A stretch of 25,702 bases of DNA, taken from a virus. Position numbers and translations under genes: made by a program. Positions within the stretch are counted from its first letter, which is position 1; each line of letters starts with the position of its first letter. Shown piece by piece: positions 625-24,271 of the stretch. Below the pieces are notes generated by a model, which was not told the origin of the DNA, searched no databases, and saw nothing but the letters and a program-made list of their open reading frames with translations. The stretch spans positions 1 to 25,702 of the IMG/VR virus record IMGVR_UViG_3300011244_000015; one strand, given 5' to 3'.

Positions 625-1161
625 TTAAGCGCGAAACTCTCTCCCGCGTGGGAGACGCAGACGCCCTTGGGGAAGGCTGAACGAGACCGTCACCGGGGGT
701 GTCACCTCGATGGTGATACTGATGCCATGCGACCGGAGCACCGGGCGGCATCGCGCCGCGGCGTCCGGCTCATACGTGATGTCCACGCTGTCGGCCGTTC
801 TGCGCCTGGCGATGAGGACCGGCGTCGCCAGGCCGACCGTATTCGGCGCGGCGTCCGTGCTAAAGATCGCGCAGGCGATCAGGCTGTCCGCGACGGTGCG
901 CGAACTCTGGATCACGCGGACGGCGGCGACCGTTAGGCTGTCCACCTGAAGGGTCCGCACCACTTCGCGCCGTGGCTCACACAGGTCGCCGATGCAGAAC
1001 GGTCCCATCTGCACGGTGGCTGGGGATTCGTTCGCCAGTCCGATCCGGTGCGCGAGGTGCGCCGCACCGACGCCGATCATCCCACCCACGAAGACGATGG
1101 CCGGGGTCGCGAGGAGGATGGCGACTAGCAGGCCGAGGACCAGCAGGACCTTACGCGTCAT
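625..1161 (-). CDS. membrane-anchored hypothetical protein
   Basis: I chose the ATG at 1161 because it overlaps the TGA of the preceding gene as ATGA; the longer frame upstream is only open sequence. The 178-residue product begins MTRKVLLVLGLLVAILL and continues hydrophobic to about residue 40, giving an N-terminal membrane anchor or uncleaved signal, then an exported domain. Cysteines appear as a close pair in GPFCIGDLCEP (about residues 54-60), with further cysteines near 95 and 136 that could form disulfides outside the cytoplasm. The C-terminal part is rich in beta-type residues and ends in a basic tail. I recognise no family. It is the last gene of the co-directional late cluster, directly after a secreted protein, so it may act with that protein at the cell surface. 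The stop is TAA at 627-625. Confidence 0.7.
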   Translation of the reverse strand: MTRKVLLVLGLLVAILLATPAIVFVGGMIGVGAAHLAHRIGLANESPATVQMGPFCIGDLCEPRREVVRTLQVDSLTVAAVRVIQSSRTVADSLIACAIFSTDAAPNTVGLATPVLIARRRTADSVDITYEPDAAARCRPVLRSHGISITIEVTPPVTVSFSLPQGRLRLPRGREFRA

Positions 1162-2489
1162 GGCTCCCTCCGCCACACGGAGGGCCACCACGCCGGCACT
1201 CCCTCGGCCGGGCCAAACATGTTGAGCTTGATCACCGTCCACTCGACCGGGTGCAGCGGGATCGTGAGGTCCTGCCGGCACAGCGTGCGGAGCGCGGCGC
1301 CCGTCTCCAGTCGCGGCGTGAGGCTCACGCTATCGGTGGATCCGTCCGTCGCCTTGATCGGGGTCGCGCCCACGGCGCGATCGCCCAGCAGGAATGAGCT
1401 GTCCGCCCGCATGATCGAGGCGCAGAGGATCGTCGGACCGCTCGCCACGTAGTTCGCGTGTCCGCTCGGCCAGAGGATCTTCGTGAACCAGTCGAAGGCA
1501 ACCGCGATGTTCGCGACCGGCGCCGGACCCACCGGTGGCCCGCGCATGATGACGGTCCTCGCGGCGGTCGCGCCGGTGGCGTTCCAGCGCGCGGTGATCG
1601 TGACCGAGCCACTTCTCTGCGGCGAGTGCACCTCAAAGTCCGTGGCGTTGTTGCGCTTCTCCGTCACGAACCCGGTGTCCCCGGAGACCAGGAACGTCAC
1701 GTTGCTCGTCGTGATCTCCTGCGCGATGCCGGCCGAGTTCATGACCGAGACCTTCACGACCGTCCAGTGATGGCAGACGCCACCCGTGATGCACGCGTCG
1801 TCGTTGGGGATGTACGAGATCGTGTCACGCGGCGCGGCCGTGAGCCCGATCATGTACGTCGCTTGCGGGGTGCGGAAATACCGGTCAGCGCTCTGAGGCG
1901 ACTGCTGCGTCGCGTTCACGGCCGTCACGTCCCAGCGATACCCGGTGGCCATGGCCAGAATGTTCGCCGGCACCGTGAACGAGGTTCCGCTCTGCGGCGC
2001 GCCGACACCCGTCGGACTCGGATACACGATGGCGCCCGTGTTGCCGTTGCGAATCGCCAGCACATATCCCGTCGCGCCGGTCACGGCGTTCCACGTGAAG
2101 TTGGACGGCGTGAGGTACGGCACTTCGGGACCGGGTGGTGTCGTCGCTCCAGGGCCGATGGTGATCGGAGCCGCCAACGGTGCCGGTGGTGGTGGAGGAG
2201 GAGGTGGTGGCGGAGTCGTGATCGGATGTGCGGAGAGGTGCTGGCTTTCGAGCGCGTTAATCCGATCGCGAAAGCGGCGGAGGTGGCCATCGCGCGCGTC
2301 TTGCCGTTTTCCCGTGCAGGTGCCACTGCTCGTCATCCGGCCGCCGCGGCAGCTCTCCCACCACAGCGAGTCGGTGTAGACCTTCACCGCGCGCAGGTGC
2401 GTCGAATCCGCCGGGGCCTGGGCAAATCCCAACCTGGTAGCAATTAGTAGCCCGATGGTACCGAGCGCCGCATAGATGGCTCTGGTCAT
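1158..2489 (-). CDS. secreted Pro-rich Ig/Fn3-like protein
   Basis: The 443-residue product starts MTRAIYAALG and has a typical Sec signal peptide: hydrophobic core at residues 4-20 and likely cleavage after AQA at 25. After a region with two cysteines (48 and 58) comes a run of ten prolines at 93-102 and a Pro/Gly linker. Residues about 125-208 look like a fibronectin type III fold (FTWNAVTGATGYVLAI, then GYRWDVTAVN), and about 245-315 like a bacterial Ig-like domain (VTFLVSGDTGF, GSVTITARWNATG). The rest, with more cysteines near 353 and 400, is unassigned. Its ATG overlaps the preceding stop as ATGA, so it belongs to the late cluster, yet a cleaved signal peptide argues against a role in the virion. 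It could be a cell-surface or host-modifying product, or a structural protein with a misleading hydrophobic start. Confidence 0.82.
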   Translation of the reverse strand: MTRAIYAALGTIGLLIATRLGFAQAPADSTHLRAVKVYTDSLWWESCRGGRMTSSGTCTGKRQDARDGHLRRFRDRINALESQHLSAHPITTPPPPPPPPPPAPLAAPITIGPGATTPPGPEVPYLTPSNFTWNAVTGATGYVLAIRNGNTGAIVYPSPTGVGAPQSGTSFTVPANILAMATGYRWDVTAVNATQQSPQSADRYFRTPQATYMIGLTAAPRDTISYIPNDDACITGGVCHHWTVVKVSVMNSAGIAQEITTSNVTFLVSGDTGFVTEKRNNATDFEVHSPQRSGSVTITARWNATGATAARTVIMRGPPVGPAPVANIAVAFDWFTKILWPSGHANYVASGPTILCASIMRADSSFLLGDRAVGATPIKATDGSTDSVSLTPRLETGAALRTLCRQDLTIPLHPVEWTVIKLNMFGPAEGVPAWWPSVWRREP

Positions 2490-5825: not shown

Positions 5826-8423
5826 CTACCGCTCCTTCGCTTGAAGAAAGCCCGCCAGCACCTGAACCGTATGGTCGCCGCTGTTCGAGCTTCTGGCGCC
5901 CTGGATCTGCAAGACACCAGCCGCCGACAGAACCACGATTCCCTTGAACCGCGCGATCCGGATCGCGGCGCCGCTGGCGGCGGTCGGGGCCGTCACCATT
6001 CCGCCAGAGGAAGAGACCGCACCACGCCACATGGTGTCGTCGCCTGCATCGCCTGACGGGATCTCAAACTCCACTACCCCGAACGCGAAGTTCGTGCAGG
6101 TGAAGCCTAACGCCAATCCAACAGACGGGTCAGCCGAGGTAAAACCGACCCACCCTTCGACATCATACAGCTCGTCCTCGAGGTCCAAGGCGAGGTCCGT
6201 GATGTCAGCCGGTGTGGTCGTGGAATCAAAGTCCTGCGGAGCGTCCGCCTCAGCGGTGAGTGGAGGATCGTCTCCATCGGTGATTTCCCACCGGCTGTGC
6301 GTGTGCGGCATCGGATCGTGGGCGGTGGTATCGTCCGACTGCCCGACCGCGACCACGAGCTTCTGGCTGAAACACTCCACATCGGCCGCATCCTCGGTCT
6401 CGAAGTAGAGACCCGCGTGACCGACATCGTACACGCTAATCTCGTCGTCGAAGGCGAAGACCGGGAACCAATCATGAAAGAGGCCGACCATCAGCCGGTT
6501 CTTCAGGATGCGGAACTCGAGGTTCCACTCCTCGCCGGTCGGCCATCCTGTGCGGATGGTTTCCCACTTGAGGTCGGTGTACACGCCGGCCACGATCTTG
6601 AAGATGCCCAGTTCCACGTCGCCGCCCGGCGCGAAGTAGAGCGCCGCGACGTAGTACGTCGTCGCGGCGGGAGCGGCCGAGAGGATGAGTCCAGCCCCGA
6701 TGTACCCGCCTGTCGGCGCCGCGTGGTACCGGACGACCGTGCGAGCCACCTTGTGTGCTTTCGCATTGCCGACCGCATTGCGGTACACACACAGCCCGAC
6801 GTCGTCCGCCCGCACCCCGAGACCATCGTCCGCGCCGACAATGTCGCCGGCGACGCCGGTCTGCTTCACCCACGTCCCACCCAGCGTCGCCGTCCGCGTC
6901 GTGAGGTTGGCGCCGGCCGCGAGCGCGAGGGTATCGCGCAGGAAGGCTGAGTCAATGACCCGCGTCACGCCTAACGTGTCGGCATAGGCCGTGGTCGCGA
7001 TTTTGGTCGAGTTGTCTCCCTGGCTCTGCGTCGGTGCCGTCGGGTTGCCCGTGAGCGCAGGCGAGGCGAGCGGCGCCTTGAGTGCCAGCGCCGTCGTCAT
7101 GGTCGCGGCGAAGTTGGCGTCGTCCCCGAACGCAGCGGCCAATTCGTCAAGCGTATCGAGCGCGCCGGGAGCCGCCGCAATCAAGGCTGCGTTGGCGGCA
7201 GCGACGAACGCGGTGGATGCTGCCTGCGTCGTGTTGGTCCCCGGTGCTGCGGTCGGGACGGTCGGTGTTCCTGTCAGGGCTGGTGACGCCAGCGCCGCCT
7301 TCGCGTCGAGCGCGGCCTGTAAGCCCGTCGTGCTGGCGATCGCGTGGACGCCGGTGCCAGCCGCATGTGCCGCGATCGCCGCCGCGTCCAGCGCGCTCAA
7401 TCCCGGAATCTGTTCGAGCATCACGAGGCTCGGGCTCATGCCCCGATCTTCGTAAGCAGCGATGCTGGTGATCACCACGTCGCCTTCGTCCGTGTCATCC
7501 ACCAGCGTGCTGATGATCCCGGTCTTTCCTGCTGTGAGCGTCGCAATGCCCGTCATCGCCGCCGCCCGCACACCGGCTACGATCAGGATGGCGTTCGCGC
7601 CGATCAGTCGCAGTTCGATGTCATACGTCTGGCCTGCGGTCGGCGCGGTGATGGGTGAACTCGCTGCACCACCAGCCACCACACCAGCAACGACCGAGAA
7701 GACGTTCCACGTCCACTGGTTCGCGCTCTGGTCGAAGTTGAGCGTCCCACCAACAAAGGTGTTCGCGCCAGACTGTGACCGTCCGACCACGCCGAGCGCG
7801 ACATCATTGTCGGTCGGGATCGCGTTGACCTTGATCTGCGCCTGTATCTGCCCATCGGCTACGGTCGGCAAGGCGGCGTTCTCGTACAACGCACTCCCAA
7901 CCCCTTCGGCTCGCACGCTCAATCCATCCGCCGCACCGACCAGATCCGCCGTATACCCGGACTTCTTCGCCCATGCACCACCCGACTCAGGCACTCTTGT
8001 CGTTAGGTTCGCGGTCGACACTAACGACAAGGAATCGCTGAGATAGCCACCTCGGCTCAGGTATCGCGCATCGCCAATAGCGAGTGTCGGGATACTCGTC
8101 GAGGCCGCGTCGCCAATCGCCCGCTTCGTGAAGGTGTCCGGGCCGGTCTGCTCCAACAAGCCATGCGACGCATCCAGGGCGGCCATCGCGGTGAGCGTGG
8201 CATCCAGCGCCTGCTTCGCGGCGAGATCGGTCACGAGGTTCGTCACCTGCGACTCGGCCACCGTCACCGGATCGGCACCTGCCACCGCGTGCTGTGATGC
8301 GTGAGCGGTCGTGGCGGCTGGAAGCTGCCCAGCCGGAACCTTGCCCGCGCCATCGAGTGAGGCAACCCCGTTCGGCTGACCTCGATGCTTCAACAGCGTC
8401 AGGATCGTATCGAGAAGAGCCAT
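5826..8423 (-). CDS. tail fibre / receptor-binding protein with duplicated module
   Basis: An 865-residue protein. The N-terminus carries fibre-type segments (NGVASLDGAGKVPAGQLPA at 18-36, HASQHAVAGADPVT at 41-54). Module 1 (about 127-328) and module 2 (about 488-692) are copies of one another: both contain NLTTR, then GG-x-W-x-K-x-[ST]G and VGA-DGL-VRA--VG--x-Y-NA, and are probably beta-sandwich lectin-like folds. Between them are two copies of a classic fibre repeat, LASPALTGTPTVPT (378-391) and LASPALTGNPTAPT (452-465), each followed by an NTTQ or NSTK and ATTA-type segment. The C-terminal domain (about 723-865) is homologous by eye to that of the capsid decoration protein at 22658-23518. 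It sits after the tail-tip genes and before lysis genes, the usual fibre position, and would contact the host surface. Confidence 0.88.
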   Translation of the reverse strand: MALLDTILTLLKHRGQPNGVASLDGAGKVPAGQLPAATTAHASQHAVAGADPVTVAESQVTNLVTDLAAKQALDATLTAMAALDASHGLLEQTGPDTFTKRAIGDAASTSIPTLAIGDARYLSRGGYLSDSLSLVSTANLTTRVPESGGAWAKKSGYTADLVGAADGLSVRAEGVGSALYENAALPTVADGQIQAQIKVNAIPTDNDVALGVVGRSQSGANTFVGGTLNFDQSANQWTWNVFSVVAGVVAGGAASSPITAPTAGQTYDIELRLIGANAILIVAGVRAAAMTGIATLTAGKTGIISTLVDDTDEGDVVITSIAAYEDRGMSPSLVMLEQIPGLSALDAAAIAAHAAGTGVHAIASTTGLQAALDAKAALASPALTGTPTVPTAAPGTNTTQAASTAFVAAANAALIAAAPGALDTLDELAAAFGDDANFAATMTTALALKAPLASPALTGNPTAPTQSQGDNSTKIATTAYADTLGVTRVIDSAFLRDTLALAAGANLTTRTATLGGTWVKQTGVAGDIVGADDGLGVRADDVGLCVYRNAVGNAKAHKVARTVVRYHAAPTGGYIGAGLILSAAPAATTYYVAALYFAPGGDVELGIFKIVAGVYTDLKWETIRTGWPTGEEWNLEFRILKNRLMVGLFHDWFPVFAFDDEISVYDVGHAGLYFETEDAADVECFSQKLVVAVGQSDDTTAHDPMPHTHSRWEITDGDDPPLTAEADAPQDFDSTTTPADITDLALDLEDELYDVEGWVGFTSADPSVGLALGFTCTNFAFGVVEFEIPSGDAGDDTMWRGAVSSSGGMVTAPTAASGAAIRIARFKGIVVLSAAGVLQIQGARSSNSGDHTVQVLAGFLQAKER

Positions 8424-21437: not shown

Positions 21438-22640
21438 CTAGCCGCTGATCGTCGGATCCTGGTACGAGGCGTTCGAGAACTGATAGACCGCGCCGTTGCC
21501 TCGGACCTTCACGCCGAAGCCGAACTGCGCGCGGTAGTACTTCACCTGCCAGGGATACAGATCGATCTCGGCGACGGAACGGAGCCCGCGCCCACCCGCG
21601 ACGCGTTCGCGGAACGCGATCGGCTTCGGCCCTTCCGTGTCGTAGCCGAACGCGTAGTTCGCGGTGCCCCACGGCTTCACCCAGATCTCGGCCGCGTCGT
21701 ACGTGCCGATCGCGCGGTTATCCAGCCGCGTGATATCGACCCGCTGCCCCATCTGGTTGGCGTGGCTGCCTAACACGAACCGCGGATCCGGATACGCCTG
21801 GAATCCGGAGAGCGCCCGCCACGCGGTTTCGTCAGCCTGGGCGATGACCGCGCGGACCTTCTGGCCATAGCCATGTTCGATCAGCGTCCGAACGAACGCC
21901 GTGGCGCCGACCGTGGTCAGCGTCGCCGTGGCCAGGAAGTGCGAGTGCGTCGACCCGTCGAACACTTCGCCATACGGGCCCTCCGGCATCTCCTCGCCGT
22001 CGCCGTTCCAGAAGCGCTTCACATCGAGGTTGATGTTCGGCGCCTGCAGGTGGTCGAAGTGCGTGTAGTTCGCCGACAGGAAGATCGCGCGCTTGAGTTC
22101 CGCCTGAACCTTCTTCAGGTGCGCCTTCTCGGCGGCCTGCGTCGCCCGCGCCATTTCGGCGACCGTGTGCTGCTCCAGCCAATCGCGGGTCCAGCCGATC
22201 GCATAGTGGAACTGCTTCAGCGGAAGCCCGCGGGCCACGATGCCACCCGGGCGCTGCGTGGGCGGCCGCGTGTTCTCGTCGCCCTCGACCATTTGGCCGG
22301 CATCGCTCGTGCCCTCACCGATCAGCCGTTCGGTGGAGGGTTCGGCGATCTCATTGAGGGCGTCCGCGAGCACCGCGTTATGCGCGGCGACGTCCGCCTG
22401 CAGGACGTCGTTCACCTGCGCGAGGTCCACCTCGCCACTCGCCGCGATACTCTCGTTCGCGAGCAGGGAGGCCATGTCCATCGTGCCGGTCTTGAGCGCG
22501 CCGACGAGCGCGAACCCGACCATCCAGTCGGGGACTGTCATGGCGTGGGTCGTCGACGGCACGGCCGCGACGATCGCCACGAGGAAACCGATCACCACCA
22601 GGGGGGGGACCAGCTTCCGGAATACGGATGCGTTGATCAT
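21438..22640 (-). CDS. major capsid protein (HK97-fold type)
   Basis: A 400-residue protein following scaffold and decoration genes. Capsid-like features are the long helix with EKAHLKKVQAELKRAIFLSA (about 170-190), FNGDGE-type loop sequence near 212, and a beta-rich C-terminal half with WVKPWGTANYAFGYDTEGPK, IAFRERVAGGRGLRSVAEID and LYPWQVKYYRAQFGFGVKVR, the last typical of capsid proteins. Unusually, residues 1-33 look like a Sec signal peptide (RKLVPPLVVIGFLVAIVAAV, then THA). The ATG at 22640 has GGAG 11 bases upstream, whereas the next ATG (residue 34) has none, and third positions through the hydrophobic part are nearly all G or C. A C8 run lies in codons 11-13, so an indel there could change the N-terminus. 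No protease gene is visible in the window. Confidence 0.85.
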   Translation of the reverse strand: MINASVFRKLVPPLVVIGFLVAIVAAVPSTTHAMTVPDWMVGFALVGALKTGTMDMASLLANESIAASGEVDLAQVNDVLQADVAAHNAVLADALNEIAEPSTERLIGEGTSDAGQMVEGDENTRPPTQRPGGIVARGLPLKQFHYAIGWTRDWLEQHTVAEMARATQAAEKAHLKKVQAELKRAIFLSANYTHFDHLQAPNINLDVKRFWNGDGEEMPEGPYGEVFDGSTHSHFLATATLTTVGATAFVRTLIEHGYGQKVRAVIAQADETAWRALSGFQAYPDPRFVLGSHANQMGQRVDITRLDNRAIGTYDAAEIWVKPWGTANYAFGYDTEGPKPIAFRERVAGGRGLRSVAEIDLYPWQVKYYRAQFGFGVKVRGNGAVYQFSNASYQDPTISG

Positions 22641-22657: not shown

Positions 22658-23518
22658 TTAGGCGCGCTTGCGCACGGACAACTGCGAGTAGTCGATCGCG
22701 ATGGCGATGCTGCCCGCATCCGTCTCGCGAGCGGCTTGCATCTGGAGCGTGCCGGCGGCGCTCAGGACGAGCACGCCGCGCGCGGTGGCGAGCATCTTGG
22801 TGGCGGGGGCGTCTGTCGCACCGACGCTGCCGCCGGACGCGACGATGGAACCGCTGACCGAGGCGATCGGATCATCGGTCGGGATGTTGACTTGGATCGT
22901 GGCCCTCGAGAAGCCGGCCGAAACCACGGCCCCGATGGTGAGCCCGACGGTGGTAGCCGCCGAGAGGAACGACGTCATGAAGTCGATGTCGTAGGTGCCC
23001 GCGGCCAGGGCGATGCCGATGCCGGTGAGGTTGGCGAGCGTGGCGCTCGTGATCGACTGGGTTCCCCCGATGACCACGATCTCCCCGCCTCCGACTCCAC
23101 CACCGATGCCACCGAAGCCGGCGTCCGCGCGAATGTCCGTCGCGTTGATGACGGTCGCGACGCCGATCGGATCGCCCGCGCTGGGCGCCGTGTCGAGCAG
23201 GCCGGCCGTTGCCGGCGAGAGGTACAGCTTCGCGCCCGGCGTCATGCTGGTGCTGTAGCGGAACCGCGCGCCGGGACCTAACAACGTGACCGGCTGTCCG
23301 GCCTTCACGTTGGGGCGCGGATTCCATCCGTGCACCTTCGCGGCTTCGGCGCCGGCGGCCGCGCCGCTCGACTTCCACGCCTTGCCGTCGGACGCCTTGA
23401 GATAGCACGGCCCGATGCCCATGTCCTCGCCCGCGATGATGTCGCCCGAGATTTGCGGCAAGATGATCGCGTTGCTGGCATCGCTGCTGGCCGAGCTACT
23501 GCGAGTGACCAGTGTCAT
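22658..23518 (-). CDS. capsid decoration protein with fused C-terminal surface domain
   Basis: A 286-residue protein between scaffold and capsid genes, with AGGAG eight bases upstream. Residues 1-133 resemble the DUF2190/gpD-type decoration fold: SGDIIAGEDMGIGPCYLKAS, then AGQPVTLLGPGARFRY, MTPGAKLYLSPATAGLL and GDPIGVATVINATDIRA. A Gly-rich hinge (about 134-146) joins a second beta-rich domain (about 150-286) with AAGTYDIDFMTSFLSAATTV, GLTIGAVVSAGFSRATIQVN and GVLVLSAAGTLQMQAARETD, reminiscent of C1q/TNF-like surface domains. That second domain is repeated at the end of the tail fibre at 5826-8423. Decoration proteins bind at capsid three-fold sites, so this domain would be exposed on the head surface. 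Confidence 0.8.
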   Translation of the reverse strand: MTLVTRSSSASSDASNAIILPQISGDIIAGEDMGIGPCYLKASDGKAWKSSGAAAGAEAAKVHGWNPRPNVKAGQPVTLLGPGARFRYSTSMTPGAKLYLSPATAGLLDTAPSAGDPIGVATVINATDIRADAGFGGIGGGVGGGEIVVIGGTQSITSATLANLTGIGIALAAGTYDIDFMTSFLSAATTVGLTIGAVVSAGFSRATIQVNIPTDDPIASVSGSIVASGGSVGATDAPATKMLATARGVLVLSAAGTLQMQAARETDAGSIAIAIDYSQLSVRKRA

Positions 23519-23554: not shown

Positions 23555-24271
23555 TCAGAATGCGCCTGCTACGGAGTTGCGTTTGGTTTCCTTCACTTCC
23601 TCGGCGGTCTTCTGCGTGGATCCGCCGCCCTGCCCTGAACGGGACCCCGCCCCGCGGTCCGCGTTGGTGTTCACGAACTTCGCCGGCGCCGTCTTCGCGA
23701 CCTGCGCCGCGAGCAGAGCGACGGCGGCATCGTCAGTGTCGGCGTCGTACGAGTCGGTCGATCCCGGTTGCAACACGCTGATGCGGCCGTCGTCCCCGAC
23801 GACAAAGCGATCGGCGTACTTCGATGCCATCACTTCCCGCGCGTATTCGGGATCGACTTTGTGCTCGGTGCTCAGCAGCGTGACCAGGCGTTCGCGAGCG
23901 CCACGGGTGAGCGCGCCTTTCAACGTCTGATCCTTCGCCGCGAGCTGCGCGTCTTTCTCCTGCAGCTTCCGCGTGTGCTTCGCGGTCAGTTCCTGTTCGA
24001 CCTTCGCGACGTCGGGCGTCTTGGCCTTGAAGTCGTCGAACGCCGTCTGCAGCTCCTCGAGCTCCTGCTTCGTGGTCTCGAGCTGCCGCGTGAGGGTGGC
24101 AATGTCCCCATCCAACTGGCCCTTCTTCTTCCCCGCGCCGTACTGGACGAGTTCCTGGGCGACGTCACGCGTGTCCGCGTGTTCGCGCATTTTCTTCGCG
24201 ACTTCCTTCGCTTTGTCCGGATCGCCGCCGACAAATGCGGCGATCGCGACGAGAATCTCGTCGAGAGTCAT
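23555..24271 (-). CDS. phage head scaffold protein
   Basis: A 238-residue protein (MTLDEILVAIAAFVGGDPDK). Residues about 55-125 form a long coiled coil (ATLTRQLETTKQELEELQTA, AKVEQELTAKHTRKLQEKDA, QLAAKDQTLKGALT), followed by a helical domain (ARERLVTLLSTEHKVDPEYA, REVMASKYADRFVVGDDGR) and a disordered polar tail ending EVKETKRNSVAGAF. Coiled-coil core, small helical domain and flexible C-terminus placed immediately before decoration and capsid genes are the features of gp20-like scaffold proteins, which guide procapsid assembly and then leave. It has only a weak Shine-Dalgarno (GGAAG). The next upstream element is a tRNA, 141 bases away, so this gene may begin a separate transcript. Confidence 0.85.
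   Translation of the reverse strand: MTLDEILVAIAAFVGGDPDKAKEVAKKMREHADTRDVAQELVQYGAGKKKGQLDGDIATLTRQLETTKQELEELQTAFDDFKAKTPDVAKVEQELTAKHTRKLQEKDAQLAAKDQTLKGALTRGARERLVTLLSTEHKVDPEYAREVMASKYADRFVVGDDGRISVLQPGSTDSYDADTDDAAVALLAAQVAKTAPAKFVNTNADRGAGSRSGQGGGSTQKTAEEVKETKRNSVAGAF

Follow-up and report, generated by a model that had tools for sequence, protein, structure and literature searches.

Homologous C-terminal domains on the capsid cement protein and tail fibre of one virus, and exchangeable tips on the cement core

Phages known for head-borne adhesion include phi29, T4 and SPP1, and in such phages it is rarely testable whether head and tail recognise the same thing. A genome that carries one domain on both its cement protein and its fibre would allow the two copies to be compared directly. 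Such a case was proposed in a first-pass annotation of IMGVR_UViG_3300011244_000015, the record of an uncultured bacterial virus, whose 25,702 nucleotides are referred to here as the window. According to it, one domain forms the C-terminus of both the capsid decoration protein and the tail fibre; it would have been exchanged between head and fibre and would serve as a host- or mucus-binding module at both ends of the particle. The questions raised by this locus are whether the similarity is real, what kind of protein carries the domain on the head, and what it might do there.

The C-terminal match between head protein and fibre

In BLASTP, residues 157-285 of the decoration protein aligned with the end of the tail fibre, residues 734-865. 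Of the 135 aligned positions, 42 were identical (31%) and 73 positive, giving 55.1 bits and E = 1e-12. The aligned block stops one residue before the C-terminus of the decoration protein (286 aa) and exactly at that of the fibre (865 aa). With low-complexity masking on, no other pair from different genes reached E <= 0.05 among the 20 predicted gene products of the window, and a profile of the pair found no further match in the remaining ORFs of the window. The common C-terminal domain was thus confirmed, and a profile alignment, which the first-pass annotation had named as a check, agreed: hhalign on the two single sequences gave a probability of 95.9 (E = 6e-9). The gene coordinates it had given were also correct; both genes lie on the minus strand, which had not been noted before (Table 1).

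Ala, Gly, Ser and Thr are abundant in both domains, which would fit a chance similarity of low-complexity sequences. However, the local score of the pair was 153, far over the highest of 2000 composition-preserving shuffles (66), and the match held under low-complexity masking (E = 1e-8 to 2e-9). The best conserved segment has the pattern GxxVLSAAGxLQxQxAR and reads GVLVLSAAGTLQMQAAR in the head copy and GIVVLSAAGVLQIQGAR in the fibre copy. The sharing would have been doubtful if no signal had been found outside this LSAAG segment, but with both segments masked the local score was still 91 against a shuffle maximum of 52 (global Z 9.4). The shuffle test and the masked BLASTP therefore refute chance, which we consider extremely improbable. 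Judged by their sequences, the two C-terminal domains are homologous, and their similarity is not compositional.

In the head protein, a Gly-rich hinge (GFGGIGGGVGGG) links the core to the C-terminal domain, as the earlier description had it. An AGGAG Shine-Dalgarno-like motif is found immediately 5′ of the ATG of the decoration gene, and this motif, together with the third-position GC of the C-terminal domain (0.91), indicates an ordinary coding sequence. PHROG tail fibre families match the other protein over residues about 340-509, with E values as low as 1.8e-37.

Table 1. Positions in the window of the two genes, their domains and the neighbouring head genes.
Feature	Position	Strand	Basis or context
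Capsid decoration (cement) gene, 286 aa	22658..23518	-	ORF; between scaffold-like and major capsid genes
Cement core, residues 1-131, putative trimer	23126..23518	-	Homologues; profile match to HFTV1 capsid stabilization protein
Gly-rich hinge GFGGIGGGVGGG, residues 134-145	23084..23119	-	Sequence
Appended C-terminal domain, residues 146-286	22661..23083	-	Homology to fibre C-terminus; beta-sandwich predicted by AlphaFold2
BLAST-aligned portion of decoration C-terminal domain	22664-23050	-	
GVLVLSAAGTLQMQAAR segment, best conserved part of head copy	22727..22777	-	
Tail fibre gene, 865 aa	5826..8423	-	PHROG tail fibre families
Fibre copy of shared domain, residues 734-865	5829..6224	-	BLASTP, shuffles; AlphaFold2; Foldseek
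GIVVLSAAGVLQIQGAR segment of fibre copy	5892..5942	-	
Major capsid protein	21438..22640	-	phrog_3990 major head protein, E = 2.3e-37
Scaffold-like gene upstream of decoration gene	23555..24271	-	phrog_206 head scaffolding protein, E = 7e-9

A cement core with exchangeable tips

A related major capsid protein (MCP) was found in 16 virus contigs. The gene preceding the MCP gene encodes a relative of residues 1-131 of the decoration protein in 14 of these contigs. The products of these 14 genes are open frames of 134-182 aa, except for one of 274 aa. A cement-core profile built from 15 sequences matched the capsid stabilization protein of the haloarchaeal virus HFTV1 (8QSY, 9GS0) at E = 5.8e-6; the A2 cement profile aligned to 8QSY_JI over positions 19-119. 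Some of the homologues also weakly match Phage_cement_2 (PF09956, best E = 0.0016) and the head decoration family phrog_122. The window protein itself matched neither PF09956, in a Pfam search at E <= 1, nor phrog_122. The adjoining MCP gene, in the window as in 14 related contigs, and the profile match to the HFTV1 protein identify residues ~1-131, at the level of sequence, as a capsid cement domain of the HFTV1 capsid-stabilization type. The N-terminal half is therefore correctly called a decoration protein. In HFTV1, trimers of the capsid stabilization protein sit on the outside of the MCP trimers, and a DALI comparison found the protein structurally similar to the base of gp8.5, the head fibre of phi29 (PMC12494034). 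By analogy with HFTV1, the cement core of the window protein would form a trimer on the outer capsid face.

A wider scan found 31 homologues of the cement core outside the window. The nearest two (L002 and L003, 55% and 53% identical) both lack an extension. In total, 21 out of the 31 are stand-alone proteins that stop at the core, give or take a few residues, and the other ten are extended by 80-176 aa. These extensions fall into three mutually unrelated families, with seven members (L005, L066, L068, L069, L073, L074 and L075), two members (L070 and L072) and a single member (L067), respectively. The first-pass annotation had suggested looking for the shared domain on the decoration proteins of other phages, and this search came out negative: none of the 31 cement homologues carries it. 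The tip of L005, taken as a candidate relative of the window domain, proved to be a different extension (hhalign probability 0.2).

Since 21 of the 31 homologues end after the core and ten bear three unrelated extensions, the tip of the decoration protein is a swappable module. The cement core has at least four unrelated, interchangeable kinds of tip, the window's being the fourth. Such free swapping of tips in the cement family suggests that the surface of the head evolves as a platform for display. For the other tip kinds, no sharing between head and fibre was found in the nine contigs searched, which are mostly fragments.

The three other tip kinds have no good Pfam or PHROG matches; the kind of 80-92 aa is weakly like part of DUF7483.

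Predicted fold and relatives of the shared domain

By sequence, the shared domain matched none of the families in Pfam, PHROG or the PDB, and in Pfam no family, Ig included, was found at E <= 10. AlphaFold2 was run on two-row alignments, with the head and fibre domains modelled separately and as monomers, and only one or two of the five models per job exceeded a mean pLDDT of 50. The fibre copy was predicted to be an eleven-strand beta-sandwich (pLDDT 64.7, pTM 0.60; one of five models good), and the head copy a beta-sandwich with the same strand order (pLDDT 68.1, pTM 0.61). The best conserved segment was modelled as a strand pair rather than a surface loop.

Foldseek search of the PDB with the fibre model returned the Photorhabdus TNF-like lectin PLTL first (E = 4.5e-4, TM 0.44-0.54), followed by birnavirus VP2 jelly rolls, BxpB/ExsF, the 4-1BB ligand (4-1BBL) and the BC2L-C lectin. 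Against the predicted viral structures of BFVD, its best matches were phage proteins, several of them with collagen repeats or tail-fibre names, at TM 0.57-0.72 within the top 25. The head-copy model had no PDB match at E <= 0.001. Its weak matches included the C-terminal domain of Bdellovibrio Bd2734, the phi812 spike knob and the TNF-family protein EDA-A2, and its TNF-like matches had TM 0.39-0.51. The models point, with moderate confidence, to a TNF/C1q-like jelly roll for the fibre copy, and the head copy is probably a jelly roll of the same TNF/C1q-like trimeric kind. An Ig-like fold of the Hoc type was rejected because no Ig family was matched in Pfam and Foldseek favours TNF-like folds for the fibre copy.

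One of the BFVD matches, assigned by its protein length (607 aa), is very probably the collagen-like gp23 of Streptomyces phage Lannister, whose C-terminal domain is also found at the C-terminal end of other fibre-like proteins from Streptomyces phages. A sequence link to this type was tried and rejected: with phrog_24062, hhalign gave a probability of 1.2, which did not exceed the best among 30 shuffles, and most pairwise Z values with the Lannister-type TNF-like family were below 2. The kinship of the shared domain with the Lannister-type domain stays a fold-level resemblance between predicted structures.

In the Streptomyces phages Beuffert (L059 784-1860) and Belfort (L060 364-1863), the gene immediately upstream of that for the head-to-tail adaptor codes for a protein with a Lannister-type end, which is annotated as a minor tail or hypothetical protein. 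The cyanophage NATL1A-7 encodes a 184-aa protein just before its major head gene (L080 3581-4135, minus strand). Its length fits the BFVD entry E3SN78, which has TM 0.70 to the fibre domain model, and the protein could be a free-standing capsid knob. As a relative of the shared domain it was rejected, the match being one of fold only, with no sequence support.

Searches for sequence relatives were negative throughout. Tblastn of the domain against phages and plasmids, up to E = 10, found no relative, while the lambda gpE positive control worked. Scanning of viral contigs with peptide patterns of the domain found none either, and a degenerate LSAAG DNA pattern gave 24 hits in viral contigs, of which 0 matched the domain profile. 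In 400 Chloroflexota genomes there were three chance-level hits, the best in a HipA-like ORF. No other head protein with the shared domain was found in the viral searches, so that no argument for selection can be drawn from recurrence.

Possible role at the two ends of the particle

We propose that the cement core docks on the capsid exterior as trimers and that the flexible Gly-rich hinge would raise the ~140-aa jelly-roll domain away from the capsid, where three head C-terminal domains could form a knob resembling the one on the trimeric fibre. Since cement and fibre are both expected to be trimers with free C-termini, the same trimeric knob fits both places. On the evidence of the models, the shared domain is probably a small, sticky, three-part knob. 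By analogy, it would most likely bind host-surface glycans or another surface polymer, and the phage would then carry binders of one type, weak but present in many copies, on its head and at its fibre tips. The model of the fibre copy is similar in fold to trimeric lectins of the TNF-like type and to the knobs of phage fibres, which makes a binding module a fair supposition. The TNF-like bacterial lectins among the Foldseek matches bind glycans according to their PDB entry titles, and the TNF-like head of Pam3 gp24 is described as part of the host-recognition region on a phage fibre (PMC9608196). This much of the earlier proposal of a binding module on both ends is in line with the fold, and mucus binding in particular found no support.

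Head-borne adhesion has been described in several phages (PMC7602432) and is proposed for the HFTV1 turrets (PMC12494034). Adhesion by the head is plausible here only by analogy with phi29 gp8.5, T4 Hoc and these turrets, and binding at both ends of the particle would be the most likely reading. We put at about even the chance that the protein is a two-part cement protein displaying a trimeric TNF/C1q-like knob akin to the fibre tip, most likely as a surface binder. The more specific possibility that the homologous knobs are lectin-like, many on cement trimers and few on fibre tips, with head and tail binding the same class of ligand, is advanced only tentatively.

The main rival to binding at both ends is a structural one, in which the domain would be a trimer clamp or folding aid that registers three chains and locks the trimer, at the C-terminal end of the fibre and over each three-fold site on the head. 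TNF/C1q-like heads nucleate trimers, and both proteins here are expected to be trimeric, the cement by way of HFTV1 and the fibre by its family. The best conserved segment being modelled within a strand pair also fits a clamp. However, 21 of the 31 relatives have the core without any such domain, which argues that it is not needed for trimers in this family, and the hinge uncouples the domain from the core, as would better suit a displayed head. We regard the clamp as possible, though rather doubtful.

Another explanation is an old duplication within the phage, from fibre tip to head gene or the reverse, with little function beyond a larger decoration. Indeed, apart from the other copy, neither had a detectable sequence relative anywhere in the searches. 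Yet their 31% identity and their differing third-position GC (0.91 in the head copy, as in the cement core and the MCP; 0.74 in the fibre copy, as in the rest of its gene) rule out recent copying, and the exchange between head and fibre genes suggested at first was not borne out. Moreover, the other decoration proteins bear unrelated tips that were not found elsewhere in their own contigs, most of which are fragments, and this equally fits acquisition from a wider pool. As to origin, the sequences are compatible with an ancient duplication and also with independent acquisition of each copy from such a pool; a duplication of little functional consequence seems unlikely to us.

Among the closest known systems, HFTV1 gp18 is a profile relative of the window cement, its gene adjoins that of the major capsid protein gp19, and it forms trimers on MCP trimers (PMC12494034); however, it has 137 aa and no added C-terminal domain, and the proposed glycan-binding parts of HFTV1 are on the separate turret proteins gp30/gp31. 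The phi29 protein gp8.5, listed among host-adhesion decoration proteins (PMC7602432), likewise has a trimeric base and an extra part projecting from the head, but this projection is an alpha-helical coiled coil (PMC7602432) instead of a jelly roll that the tail also has. T4 Hoc and other Ig-like head proteins have a beta-sandwich adhesive domain type that, by a survey cited in PMC7602432, occurs across phages on both decoration proteins and tail fibres; unlike the window protein, Hoc has an Ig-like fold, is monomeric and has an unrelated capsid-binding domain. Pam3 gp24, P22-like tail needles and collagen-like fibre proteins such as Lannister gp23 have the fold that is predicted for the fibre copy, and the Lannister-type proteins also carry it at the C-terminus, where the fibre here has the shared domain. 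These phage knobs are, however, known on tails, and their sequence relationship to the window domain is not significant.

The kinds of part are thus already known: projecting tips on cement proteins, TNF-like knobs on fibres, and a domain class, the Ig-like one, on heads and tails alike. Within the reach of the searches made, two things are new: a single phage whose head cement and fibre have homologous C-terminal domains, and a cement core whose tips, of at least four kinds, are interchangeable. The sharing between head and fibre seems to combine known parts in a new way and not to represent a new type of system.

Within the tail fibre, residues about 127-281 are also duplicated at about 494-646, with 31.6% identity (E = 3e-22), and these copies (7581-8045 and 6486-6944, minus strand) flank the phage-tail repeat stretch. 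Downstream of the endolysin gene, the window encodes a 443-aa protein (1158-2489, minus strand) that has a proline-rich stretch as well as segments resembling Ig or fibronectin-type modules.
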